This document shows positions 46,795 to 51,192 of a DNA stretch of 64,000 nucleotides, in pieces; within the stretch, counting starts at the first letter, position 1, and the number at the start of each line of letters is the position of its first letter. The translations under genes were made by a program, and so were the position numbers. The stretch comes from Hyalangium ruber (GTDB lineage Bacteria > Myxococcota > Myxococcia > Myxococcales > Myxococcaceae), in the NCBI RefSeq assembly GCF_034259325.1, contig NZ_JAXIVS010000004.1:744001-808000 (forward strand), in the 5' to 3' direction. The notes beneath the pieces are model-generated. The model was not told the origin of the DNA. It ran no database searches and saw only the letters and a list, made by a program, of their open reading frames with translations.

Positions 46795-49185
46795 ATGGAA
46801 GCATCCTCTCAAGCCCGTCGGTACGTGCTCCTGGTGACGGCCATCGCCGCCGCTGGAGCCTCCGGCTGCTACGGGCAGGCGACGTTGGAAGTACCTGGCT
46901 ACGAGGTGCCGACACGCGATGGCGTGCCGGTGTACGACGGAGACAACCCACCGCTACCCGTGCTGGAGCAGGACGGCTCGATCGTCTGCGCGAGCGCGAG
47001 CGCTCCCGACACGGTGACGCTGGCGAGCATCGCCGCGGACTTCGAGCGCCAGGTGCAGCCGGCCATGCTGAACGAGAGCTCGGGCTGCATCTCCTGCCAC
47101 GCCACCACCAGCGGCCGGCTCTTCAAGGTGAGCCCGAACGGGGTGGAGACGTTCTACGCGGCGCGCGCCGCGGGCTACCTGCGCACCTCGGCGGGCTCGC
47201 TGCTCTCGCGATTGATCACCACCGACGAGAGCGCGCGCATGCCGCGCGGCCAGCCCTCGTGGAACGCTCGGGAGCTCGCCGCGCTGGCCAGCCTCACCTG
47301 CCAGCTGGCAGCGGTGGAGGCCCGCTCGCCGCAGACGCCGCCGGACGAGGAGTTCCCCCCGGCGCTGCTCCAGCCGTACTCCGGCCCGCCCGTGGCCTCG
47401 TATGACAACCCCTTCCTCAACTTCGTGCAGCTCAAGGGGAAGGTGAAGCTGGTCTTCAACGACAGCTGGGTGCGCAACAACGTGGACAAGTTCGCCCAGC
47501 GCGTGGGGCTCTTCGGCGGCGTGGACTATGAGCAGTACTTCGTCGAGGCGCGCGTGGCCACGCCCGACTTCCTGCTGGGCCTGGACGAGCTGGCCCTGGA
47601 CGTGTGCGGCGCGGCGGCCACCAACCGCACCGGCCCCTTCGCCGGCGTGGACACCAGCGCGGGGCTCGTGGACACGCCCGCCGCCACCACCCGCACCTTC
47701 CAGGCGGAGAACTCCCAGGACCTGACGCCCAGCACGGGCCAGACGGCGGGCACCGGGTGGAACCTCTACACCACCGGCACGCTCACCACGACGCAGGCGC
47801 ACGTCATCGGCTACGGCGGCACGTACCGCTTCACCGTGCGCGCGCGGGGAGACCTGTGCGGCTCCGAGCCGCCGATGATGGAGCTGCGCATGGACGGCGC
47901 GCAGGTGCAGGCCTGGGGCGTGAACACAACGGCCTATACGGACTTCGTGCAGACGGTGACGGTGCCCGCGGGCAGCCACGTGCTCTCGGTGGGCTTCACC
48001 AACGACTACAACCAGGAAGGCGTCTGCGACCGCAACCTCTACGTGGACTTCCTCCAGGTGACGGGGCCCACGGAGCCGCCCTCCGGTACCGCGCGGGCGG
48101 ACGCCGCCAAGGTACACGTGAACACCCTCTATAAGAGGATGCTCTACCGCACGGCCACCGCGCAGGAGCAGGCCAACGGCTACGCGCTGCTCCAGGACCT
48201 CTTCACCATGGAGGCCAGCGTGCCCAAGGCGTGGAGCGGGCTGTGCGAGGGGTTGATGCGCTCGCCGGACTTCCTCTTCACCCTGCCGCCTTCGCACGAG
48301 ACACGCTCGGGCCTGGAGCGCCAGCGGCTGCTGCTGGTGAAGCTGGCGCAAGACCTCGTGGGCCGCCCGCCCAACGCGGCGGAGCTCTCGGCCTTCGAGA
48401 GCGGCAGCCAGAGCTGGGAGCAGATGGTGGAGACGTACCTGGGCTCGGCGGAGTTCCGCGCCTACTACTTCCACAAGATGCGCATCCGCACCGAGAGCGA
48501 GGGCACGGCGGACACGGACGAGCCGGCGCGCCTGTGGACGTACCTGGCCACCACCGGAGCGCCGATGCAGGAGCTGCTCACGGGCGACTACTCGGTGGCG
48601 CTCGACTTCAGCAAGGTGCCGCGCGCGACCGAGCACGGAAACACGGGCGTGCTCACCATGAAGGGCTTCATCCAGAACAAGCCGGGCCTGCCGCGCTACA
48701 ACTACGCGGCGCGGGTGATGACCGACTTCATGGGCACGCTCTTCGAGGTGCCCTCCGAGGTGTTCGACATGCGCGGGGCGGCCACGGCGGCCTCCACGGT
48801 GGACCCGACGAGCATCTGCTTCTCGTGTCACCAGACGCTCACCCCGCTGTCGTACCAGCGCATGCGGTGGGACGACGCGGGCAACTACCGCACCACGGAC
48901 GACCAGGGCCGCCCCATCGACGACAGCGACCGCGGGCTCGTGGGCGTCTACGCCTACAAGGGCCAGGGCATGGAGGCCTTCGCCCAGCAGGCGGTGAAGA
49001 AAGAGCCCTTCCTGCGCCGCACGATCAACGCGCAGTACATGCTCTTCTTCGGCCGGGAGATGCGGTACAGCCTGGACGAGCGCGGCATGTACAAGCGCTT
49101 GTGGGACGTGGCGCACGCGTCGGAGGGCAACCTCAAGGCCGTGCTGAAAGCGATTGCCCTCTCTCCCGAGTACACCCACCTCTGA
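46795..49185 (+). CDS. c-type-heme lipoprotein with DUF1592/DUF1588-like domains and inserted CBM-like domain
   Basis: The 796-residue protein has a lipoprotein leader (C25 in GASGCYG). A CISCH heme-binding motif at 98-102 is followed by a planctomycete-type region. Residues about 300-430 (FQAENSQDLTPSTGQTAG, then VIGYGGTYRFTVRARGDLCG and LYVDFLQVTGP) resemble a carbohydrate-binding module of the CBM35/60 type. The C-terminal 350 residues carry the DUF1592/1588-like pattern YKRMLYRTATAQEQANGYAL, TGVLTMKGFIQNK-like text and ICFSCHQTLTPLSYQRM with a second CxxCH. It is exported, so heme is attached in the periplasm. Substrate unknown; it pairs with the next gene. Confidence 0.8.
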   Translation: MEASSQARRYVLLVTAIAAAGASGCYGQATLEVPGYEVPTRDGVPVYDGDNPPLPVLEQDGSIVCASASAPDTVTLASIAADFERQVQPAMLNESSGCISCHATTSGRLFKVSPNGVETFYAARAAGYLRTSAGSLLSRLITTDESARMPRGQPSWNARELAALASLTCQLAAVEARSPQTPPDEEFPPALLQPYSGPPVASYDNPFLNFVQLKGKVKLVFNDSWVRNNVDKFAQRVGLFGGVDYEQYFVEARVATPDFLLGLDELALDVCGAAATNRTGPFAGVDTSAGLVDTPAATTRTFQAENSQDLTPSTGQTAGTGWNLYTTGTLTTTQAHVIGYGGTYRFTVRARGDLCGSEPPMMELRMDGAQVQAWGVNTTAYTDFVQTVTVPAGSHVLSVGFTNDYNQEGVCDRNLYVDFLQVTGPTEPPSGTARADAAKVHVNTLYKRMLYRTATAQEQANGYALLQDLFTMEASVPKAWSGLCEGLMRSPDFLFTLPPSHETRSGLERQRLLLVKLAQDLVGRPPNAAELSAFESGSQSWEQMVETYLGSAEFRAYYFHKMRIRTESEGTADTDEPARLWTYLATTGAPMQELLTGDYSVALDFSKVPRATEHGNTGVLTMKGFIQNKPGLPRYNYAARVMTDFMGTLFEVPSEVFDMRGAATAASTVDPTSICFSCHQTLTPLSYQRMRWDDAGNYRTTDDQGRPIDDSDRGLVGVYAYKGQGMEAFAQQAVKKEPFLRRTINAQYMLFFGREMRYSLDERGMYKRLWDVAHASEGNLKAVLKAIALSPEYTHL

Positions 49186-49207
49186 AGCACCTCCAGGGAG
49201 CCGCACC

Positions 49208-50884
49208 ATGAACCGCCGCCGATTCCTCGCTGGCGCGCTCGCCGGCACCGCCATCAGCACGCTGGACTGGCTCCGCTTCTTCCGGAGCTTCGGCGTGCCG
49301 GGCACGAAGAAGGAGCTGGGCATCGCCGAGGCCGCCGCCGCGGAGCTCAACGCCACGCCCCACTTCCTCATCTACTGGTTCCAGGAAGGGGGCTGGGACG
49401 GGTACTCGATGTTCAACCCGGTCCACACGCCCAACGACGCCGCGCGCATCATCCCCGCCGGCACGCTGCTGCCCGTGCCGGGCTGGAGCCAGCACCGCTA
49501 CCGGCCGAAGAACTACGGCACCAGCCCGCTCAACCCGCCGCGCACCTCGGGCAACATCACCTACGGCTACCTGGCCGAGGACGGGCTGCCGCTCTTCCCG
49601 GACATGGCGGTGGTGTCCAGCCACAACGGCAACACGTTCCACTCGGGCGGCCGCTGGGAGTACCACTACGGCCGCTACAGCTCATCCCTGTCCGGCTATC
49701 GCCACCCGGACGAGCGCACGGTGATGCAGGCCTTCTGCGAGGCGTACGGCACCGGCTACCTGCTGCCGCACGTGAGCTGGCACCGCTGGCTCTCGGATGG
49801 CGAGCTGTCCATCCCCTCCTACCCCGAGGGTACGGGCTACTACGAGAAGCTCGGGCCGGTGCATGCGCACACGCTCTACGGCAAGACGCCGGCGGACATG
49901 CGCAACCGCCTCATGTCCCTGGGCAGCATCGCGCAGGGCCAGCGCGGGGCGCGCATCCGCCAGTTCACCGACAACCTGCAGGCCAACTTCCTCAACGAGA
50001 AGAACGGCGAGTCGGTGCGCGCCTTCTCCTCCGCGCTCACCATCCACCGCGCCCTCACCGGCGGCAGCGCCCCGGACATCAACCCGCAGACGATGTTCAA
50101 CGACACCACGCTGCGCTCCGAGTTCGGCGTGGCGGCCACGGATGAGACGACCGAGTCCTCCTCCATCAACGGCAACCCCGCCCGCTCCAAGGAGACGCCC
50201 AACACCAACGTCCAGGCGCTGATGACCTACGAGCTGATGACGAAGGGGCTCTCCATCGGCTTCTTCATCGAGAACCGCGGCCTGCGCATGTACGACACGC
50301 ACAATGACCGCCGCACCATCATGAACAACAAGGGGCAGCAGGATCAGCTCAACATGGCGCGCAAGCACCTGTGGTCGCCGCTGAAGACCCTGGTGGCGAA
50401 GCTGAAGGCCACTCCCTACGGCGACACGGGCAAGAGCTACTACGACTTCACCACCATCGTGCTGGCCTCGGAGATGGGGCGCACCATCACCGGCGACGTG
50501 CAGGGCATCCTCACCAACGCGGGCCTGAGCGACGTGCAGAAGTACGACGAAATCATGGGCCAGGACTGCTGCCAGCACTGGCGCGTGAGCAGCGCGGCGT
50601 TCCTGGGCGGCACGGTGCGCGGCAACACCCAGTGGGGCCGCGTGGGCAGCGCCTCGCTGGAGGGCATTCCCCTCATGCCCAACGGCACGCTGGATCCGGC
50701 CTATGACCCGGACACCGGCCTGCTCATCCCCGGCCGGTTGAAGAGCACCCAGAGCTTCGTCTCCGACGCGGGCCACGTGTATTCCACGGCCCTGTACCTG
50801 TCGGGGCTGGACCCCGTGGCCCTGCGCCAGGCGGGCAAGGGGCGCAATGACCGCGCCCCGATGACCTTCATCAAGAAGCCTTGA
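49208..50884 (+). CDS. Tat-exported DUF1501-like protein
   Basis: The 558-residue protein begins MNRRRFLAGALAGTAIST, a twin-arginine signal. It contains FLIYWFQEGGWDGYSMFNPV, then VVSSHNGNTFHSGGRWEYHY, and FTTIVLASEMGRTITGDVQG, matching the DUF1501 group of the alkaline-phosphatase/sulfatase superfamily. The start at 49208 follows AGGGAG, 22 bases after the heme lipoprotein gene. The two are the usual partners of 'DUF1592 plus DUF1501/1552' pairs in planctomycetes and myxobacteria, thought to act on polymers outside the cytoplasm. No activity is established. Confidence 0.8.
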   Translation: MNRRRFLAGALAGTAISTLDWLRFFRSFGVPGTKKELGIAEAAAAELNATPHFLIYWFQEGGWDGYSMFNPVHTPNDAARIIPAGTLLPVPGWSQHRYRPKNYGTSPLNPPRTSGNITYGYLAEDGLPLFPDMAVVSSHNGNTFHSGGRWEYHYGRYSSSLSGYRHPDERTVMQAFCEAYGTGYLLPHVSWHRWLSDGELSIPSYPEGTGYYEKLGPVHAHTLYGKTPADMRNRLMSLGSIAQGQRGARIRQFTDNLQANFLNEKNGESVRAFSSALTIHRALTGGSAPDINPQTMFNDTTLRSEFGVAATDETTESSSINGNPARSKETPNTNVQALMTYELMTKGLSIGFFIENRGLRMYDTHNDRRTIMNNKGQQDQLNMARKHLWSPLKTLVAKLKATPYGDTGKSYYDFTTIVLASEMGRTITGDVQGILTNAGLSDVQKYDEIMGQDCCQHWRVSSAAFLGGTVRGNTQWGRVGSASLEGIPLMPNGTLDPAYDPDTGLLIPGRLKSTQSFVSDAGHVYSTALYLSGLDPVALRQAGKGRNDRAPMTFIKKP

Positions 50885-50893
50885 GTCGGCCCC

Positions 50894-51130
50894 TCAGCTT
50901 CCGAGCTCCCGGGCCACGGCGTTCACAATCTCTTGCTCGGTGGGGAATGCGAGCGACTGCTTCTTCACCACCGTCTTGCCGTTCACGGAGACCTCGAAGC
51001 TCCCGGATGGGCCGTGCTTCAGCTCCGAGTCCAGCTCGAACTCGTCCTTCAGGGTAGCCGCCACACGGGCAGCTCGAGGCCTGTAGCCTCAGGCATTGCA
51101 ATAGGTGATGGTGATCTTCGCGGCGGACAT
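50894..51130 (-). CDS. SelW/Rdx-family selenoprotein, UGA read as selenocysteine
   Basis: From ATG 51130, after GGGGAGA, the frame reads MSAAKITITYCNAUGYRPRA with TGA as codon 14 (51089-51091), then continues ARVAATLKDEFELDSELKHG, SGSFEVSVNGKTVVKKQSLA and FPTEQEIVNAVARELGS to a TGA stop at 50894. The 78-residue product is a complete Rdx/SelW thioredoxin-like protein: CxxU redox motif at 11-14, central strand with GSFEVSVNGK and family-like end. A 7-bp hairpin 14 bases after the UGA suits a bacterial SECIS element. SelW-type proteins are glutathione or thiol-dependent redox proteins. Standard gene callers would stop at codon 14 and miss this gene. Confidence 0.88.
51056..51074 (-). promoter_or_regulatory. 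putative bacterial SECIS hairpin
   Basis: On the reverse strand AGCTGCC-CGTGT-GGCGGCT forms a 7-bp stem (one T-G wobble) with a five-base loop containing G and T. It begins 14 bases downstream of the in-frame TGA of the SelW-like gene, near the 11-16 base spacing seen for bacterial SECIS elements bound by SelB. A second hairpin, GAGGC/GCCTC, begins at the TGA itself. Confidence 0.6.
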
Positions 51131-51192
51131 GGCGTGTCTCCCCTCGCCTCAAGAGATAATTCCGCGTCCCCGGTTTCGCCAACCTCGGTACC

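Follow-up and report, generated by a model that had tools for sequence, protein, structure and literature searches.

A reading frame on the minus strand of the Hyalangium ruber genome is broken by an in-frame TGA, which raises the question of whether this codon ends translation or is instead decoded as selenocysteine (Sec) in a small protein of the SelW type. The frame, which we refer to as selW, occupies positions 50894 to 51130 of the window (that is, the whole stretch of 64,000 nucleotides that was analyzed). Based on its frame, its profile matches and its relatives, we conclude that selW is almost certainly a SelW-like (Rdx family) selenoprotein gene specifying 78 residues, in which UGA codon 14 would be translated as Sec through SelB and a downstream hairpin, and in which Cys11 and Sec14 would form a CxxU redox site.

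An interrupted frame of the Rdx family

The selW frame runs for 78 codons from an ATG (51130-51128) to a terminal TGA (50896-50894), and its single inner TGA, the predicted Sec codon, is codon 14 (51091-51089). In keeping with the preliminary description, which had proposed an ATG with a ribosome site and a frame broken solely at codon 14, a purine-rich Shine-Dalgarno-like stretch, GAGGGGAG (51138-51145, minus strand), can be read directly 7 nt before the ATG. When codon 14 is read as Sec, the redox-site motif of the product is C11-N-A-U14.

The read-through product matched both the Pfam Rdx profile (PF10262; 54.9 bits against a cut-off of 22.6, E=1e-14) and TIGR02174 (CXXU_selWTH; 53.3 bits against a cut-off of 34.2), and the earlier assignment of the frame to an Rdx/SelW protein with a CxxU motif therefore stands. 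The best NCBIfam E-value (1.7e-20) was obtained with NF041051 (SelTWH_Campy), the equivalog of Campylobacter jejuni SelW; the score of 73 bits did not reach the curated cut-off of 88, and the Hyalangium product thus lies outside that equivalog. Among eight PDB sequence matches with E<=1 were 2ljk (C17orf37/MIEN1), 3dex (SAV_2001) and mouse SelW (2npb).

An AlphaFold2 model of the product, for which the input consisted of 20 rows (the window copy together with 19 of 26 loci from a scan of named genomes that is described below), predicts a thioredoxin-like fold with a mean pLDDT of 85.9, a pTM of 0.74 and the order E-H-E-E-E-H. The modeled strands span residues 6-10, 35-39, 45-49 and 52-56 and the helices span residues 17-31 and 65-77, such that Cys11 and Sec14 are placed in the loop that connects strand 6-10 to helix 17-31. 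The best Foldseek matches of the model in the PDB were 3dex, 2obk and 2fa8 (TMq 0.81-0.87), with mouse SelW (2npb) at 0.71. In particular, the first 21 Foldseek rows were chains of six bacterial entries (3dex, 2obk, 2fa8, 2oka, 2ojl and 2p0g), three of which carry a SelW- or SelT-related label, and these were followed by MIEN1, mouse SelW and thioredoxins. The predicted fold is therefore like that of the solved Rdx structures and of mouse SelW (TM-scores of 0.71-0.87 by query length), whereas sequence identity to them is 24-33%. Taken as a member of the Rdx family, the product combines a profile match over the cut-off with a CxxU motif directly after the first strand and, in the model, a thioredoxin-like fold.

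The surroundings of selW gave no functional hint and no pointer to a substrate when we compared synteny across 77 loci (most with flanks of 1-1.5 kb; the set includes the window's own locus as well as L095-L097, whose selW DNA is the same as that of L022, L024 and L025). The neighboring 257-aa gene, for which Pfam returned no match, lay near selW in 4 of the 77 loci, a DUF1501-like gene in 17 and rsfS/rlmH in 3. In the window itself, two overlapping reading frames are present on the plus strand at 46795-49185 and 49154-50884; the first specifies a protein of 796 aa that contains a CBM60 module, and the second, which is DUF1501-like (24.8 bits, below the cut-off of 27), is convergent with selW, with 9 bases between its end and the selW stop.

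Conservation of the UGA and of the hairpin downstream

We searched 96 genomes of the family, taken to be the Myxococcaceae from the named relatives described below and with that of H. ruber included, at a match threshold of E<=0.001. Relatives of selW were found in 74 of these genomes, and in every one of the 74 the best match carried exactly one TGA, at an identical position in the alignment of the extracted copies (51089-51091 in the window). All 74 copies have Cys at position -3 from the UGA and Gly-Tyr directly after it, and no further stop occurs in any of them over the 59 codons that follow the UGA. Relative to the window copy, 1168, 732 and 1839 differences fell at codon positions 1, 2 and 3, respectively, and the eight pairs for which dN/dS was computed past the UGA gave values of 0.18-0.51. 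The preliminary description had claimed conservation past the TGA, and had named degenerate sequence after the TGA in sister genomes as grounds for abandoning its reading; the protein is conserved past the TGA in the 74 relatives. (Note that we did not count the 64 open codons that follow the UGA as evidence, because high GC makes open frames common: at 69.6% GC, an open frame of this length is expected from base composition with a chance of approximately 28%. It is the homology, the occurrence of the TGA at one codon in all relatives and the dN/dS values that take selW beyond chance.)

The scan of named genomes yielded 26 loci, from Hyalangium versicolor (78%), an Archangium MAG (76%), a Myxococcaceae MAG (74%) and, for the remainder, an uncultured bacterium, Acidobacteriota, Chloroflexota, Bacillaceae and others. 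The three nearest of these loci, L095-L097, are the ones that duplicate selW DNA of the family search. TGA occupies the site in 25 of the 26 loci and Cys in one (L105, from a gammaproteobacterial MAG). The residue after the UGA differs with distance: it is Gly in the family, but U-G occurs in none of the 22 UGA loci beyond the three nearest, where U is followed by N, H, Q, S or R.

A wider sample of 195 genomes of the phylum (the 96 family genomes included), in which the best 29 or fewer candidates per genome were scored, contained a relative in at least 99 genomes, and in 97 of those 99 the relative was a UGA form (74 in the family and 23 outside it). We read the 25 copies found beyond the family: the UGA was at the CxxU site in all 23 UGA forms, and the two stop-free copies, from G110 (CYRC) and G151 (CAPC), had Cys there. 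Among the candidates scored, these two genomes have the Cys form only, and neither has a selA match. Cys takes the place of Sec in all four stop-free relatives that were read, namely those of L105, G110 and G151 and a paralogue in G045. Conservation thus extends to both sides of the UGA and some homologues carry Cys at the site, which is the pattern of a selenoprotein. The G045 paralogue belongs to a tandem pair (L086, G045:C44:126670-129265) in which a UGA-containing selW (CNSU) lies beside a Cys-containing selW (CVTC), a natural Sec/Cys pair located downstream of genes that we take, from their sequence, to be rsfS- and rlmH-like.

The preliminary description had also placed a 7-bp hairpin 14 bases past the UGA. 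We read this hairpin, a predicted bacterial SECIS element, at 51074-51056 on the minus strand as AGCUGCC-CGUGU-GGCGGCU, that is, a 7-bp stem with a 5-nt loop, CGUGU, starting 14 nt after the UGA and with the apical loop from 21 nt after it. The constraints set out for bSECIS elements in PMC13188914 comprise a loop length of 3-9 nt, a stem length of 4-16 bp, a G within the first two nucleotides of the loop, a UGA-to-loop distance of 16-37 nt and an MFE of -7.5 or lower. Scored with a custom script on 57-nt pieces, the window hairpin falls inside every one of these published limits (loop 5, stem 7, G in second position, spacing 21, MFE -20.8), and the suggested check for a bacterial SECIS element was thereby passed. 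The script was passed by 65 of the 74 family copies and failed by the other 9, and was passed by 1510 of 3700 synonymous-codon controls. All seven pairs are kept in 61 of the 74 copies versus 8.7% of the synonymous-codon controls, with six pairs kept in 10 copies and five in 3; an A-C mismatch in the stem is seen in 10 of the 74, and two lower pairs are lost in 3.

Over the 69 distinct rows of the alignment, 96.7% of cells were paired, compared to 25-71% for slid versions of the stem, and cells changed on both sides numbered 15 versus 2.9 in shuffles. Two of five covariation measures were no higher than in shuffles (2 versus 1.6 double-change pairs and 6 versus 5.5 further pair types, values that were each reached by 289 of 500 shuffles). 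RNAalifold recovered the same helix with six pairs. The loop sequence was CGTGC in 60 of the 74 copies, CGGGC in 9, CGTGT in 4 and CGGGT in 1. Arg is encoded in the loop by CGT in 64 of the 74 copies; CGT makes up 5.3% of the 262 Arg codons in seven open reading frames of the window. Moreover, third-position entropy averaged 0.42 bits in stem codons versus 1.07 elsewhere (P 0.0006). Because the rows are related, we treat these hairpin statistics as descriptive.

The mean folding energy of the 74 real 57-nt pieces was no lower than that of synonymous controls (-23.09 versus -23.04), and a 62-nt piece folded alone was not unusual (z -1.17). A 40-nt piece taken from the UGA had a z of -2.41, with 5 of 200 shuffles equally good; the corresponding 40-nt pieces of six relatives each formed a hairpin in the expected region, with z below -2 in L098 alone (-2.47) and from -0.19 to -1.49 in the others. 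Rfam returned nothing for the hairpin, whether the entire window was searched at the gathering score or positions 50990-51130 were searched with E-values of up to 10 allowed. As judged from the aligned copies, the hairpin is conserved beyond synonymous-codon controls, though its overall folding energy is no lower than theirs.

Selenocysteine machinery and the reading of codon 14

The absence of selA, selB, selC and selD had been named beforehand as a finding that would count against selW; all four are present in the H. ruber assembly (10.77 Mb in 43 contigs), in which the machinery searches were performed. A tRNA-Sec scored 72.4 bits, over the cut-off, and was called by ARAGORN as tRNA-SeC with anticodon TCA (a second tRNA-Sec match over the cut-off, at 49.2 bits, was called by ARAGORN as a tRNA-Ser). 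SelB gave one match over the cut-off, at 306.9 bits, SelA scored 566.8 bits and SelD 385.9 bits. The SelD gene (L018, G000:C7:62733-63659) has a single in-frame TGA of its own, flanked as CAG-U-AAK, which is presumably the active-site Cys/Sec position of SelD. Because SelD is also interrupted by UGA, the genome looks, from its sequence, to hold at least two UGA-containing selenoprotein-like genes, selW and selD. Formate dehydrogenase gave five matches in this genome, all of them stop-free and short of the cut-off.

Across the family, selA was over the cut-off in 72 of the 74 genomes with a UGA-containing selW, and the other two genomes are 80% and 87% complete; in the 22 of 96 genomes that lack selW, selA was present in 16 (Fisher P 0.0016 for co-occurrence over the 96 genomes, kinship ignored). 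Across the phylum sample, selA was over the cut-off in 94 of the 97 genomes with a UGA form, and the UGA form was found in 94 of 150 genomes with selA versus 3 of 45 without it (Fisher P 6e-12 over the 195 genomes, again ignoring kinship). The three UGA-form genomes without a selA match are G009 (80% complete), G083 (87%) and G106 (92%), and an assembly gap likely lies behind the missing gene in each. The copy in G106 (L128, G106:C157:43946-44155) carries the motif CAVU, and the missing selA match in this genome may reflect either a gap in the assembly or an alternative source of Sec-tRNA. A separate observation concerns G036, a 100% complete genome in which the selA match is just 23 bits, selW is absent and SelD is stop-free. 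Its genus is represented by six further genomes, three with both selA and selW and three with selA alone, and the Sec trait looks, from these sequences, to have been lost in G036 within its genus.

With these components in place, SelA and SelD would supply Sec-tRNA, and SelB would bring Sec-tRNA(Sec) to UGA codon 14 by recognizing the hairpin that starts 14 nt downstream. The product would be a small thioredoxin-fold oxidoreductase with the Cys11-x-x-Sec14 pair as its redox site. By analogy with its relatives it would be redox-active, and thiol redox protection is its most likely role.

Three other readings of codon 14 have to be weighed against Sec insertion. The frame does hold a TGA, and a single base change turns TGC or TGT into TGA, such that selW could be a pseudogene, a former CxxC Rdx gene truncated by a chance TGA or by a sequencing error. 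We reject this reading on the strength of family-wide conservation: all 74 family relatives carry this TGA and stay open over the 59 codons that follow it, differences at third positions exceed those at first or second positions, and the probability left to a pseudogene is next to nil. Because DNA alone does not reveal the inserted residue, the UGA could in principle also be decoded as some other residue (Trp, say, as in code 4) or passed by non-specific read-through. However, the genome encodes tRNA-Sec, SelA, SelB and SelD, selW itself ends in TGA, the four stop-free relatives that were read have Cys at the site and the hairpin is conserved in matching register, all of which make this reading highly improbable.

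Sec insertion in bacteria competes with termination, and the UGA might thus act as a regulatory stop, at which translation mostly ends after 13 residues and Sec read-through takes place only when selenium is plentiful. Selection on the codons past the UGA shows that the full-length product is used, and we regard a mainly regulatory stop as unlikely. Decoding of codon 14 as Sec in a full-length SelW-like protein is the reading that we favor.

SelW among the predicted selenoproteins of the Myxococcaceae

SelW-like bacterial selenoproteins, reported in the Sargasso Sea set, have been in print since 2005 (PMC1088965). An account from 2006 described 10 SelW-like genes, with Desulfotalea and Geobacter sulfurreducens among the hosts, gave Anaeromyxobacter dehalogenans 11 selenoproteins with no SelW-like one in its tally, and drew the generalization that FdhA or SelD occurs in every selenoproteome (PMC1794560). 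A 2016 survey of >5200 organisms counted 35 'Selenoprotein W like' (PMC5029168), and a 2022 review tabulated the family as Rdx (pfam10262) with CxxU and placed it, with SelD, as most abundant in ocean samples (PMC9312934). Full-length translation of C. jejuni SelW is backed by Ribo-seq and proteomics (PMC11955535); that protein likewise has approximately 80 aa with a UGA-encoded Sec, and its gene was missed by annotation (PMC11955535; NF041051). H. ruber selW shares with the published SelW-like family (PMC1088965; PMC1794560; PMC5029168; PMC9312934) the Rdx domain, the CxxU motif, the in-frame UGA, the downstream hairpin and the genomic Sec machinery, but Myxococcaceae are not named as hosts in the portions of these accounts that deal with the family. 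The main text of the 2025 deep-Sep paper contains none of the terms SelW, selenoprotein W, Rdx or Myxococc (PMC12013277; term search), and in the literature on selenoproteins or SelW in myxobacteria, Deltaproteobacteria and Myxococcota we found no title on SelW in Myxococcaceae, though supplements may list one (e.g. Table S2 of PMC5029168). It seems, then, that the kind of gene is known and its mechanism ordinary, and that what is new is this member and its spread in the Myxococcaceae. The known mechanism of Sec insertion is left unchanged, and many myxobacterial genomes gain a well-supported selenoprotein whose kind tends to escape gene prediction.

In the 96 family genomes, we compared selW with SelD and FdhA. 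SelD was over the cut-off in 91 genomes, with a UGA-interrupted form listed in 29 of the 91 and a stop-free best match in the other 62. The FdhA survey scored the best 10 or fewer candidates per genome, and among the matches listed a UGA-interrupted formate dehydrogenase was found in at least 7 of the 96 genomes, with all seven below the family cut-off. UGA-containing selW, in 74 of the 96, is therefore found in more genomes than the UGA form of selD (29) or of fdhA (at least 7, among the matches listed). Moreover, neither UGA-SelD nor UGA-FdhA was among the matches listed in 43 of the 74 genomes with UGA-selW, and selA was present in 42 of those 43. Other selenoproteins are to be expected in the family, because 13 selA-positive genomes had no UGA form of selW, selD or fdhA among the matches listed.

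The 74 UGA-containing relatives in the family, the tandem Sec/Cys pair and the complete genome without selA and selW together provide a test set for why Sec is kept. One tentative, and at present rather doubtful, possibility is that the Sec system of the Myxococcaceae is carried mainly by the small SelW protein rather than by SelD or formate dehydrogenase. If true, this would counter the FdhA-or-SelD generalization as worded in the 2006 account (PMC1794560), and SelW-dependent redox chemistry would be a main reason that these bacteria keep selenocysteine.
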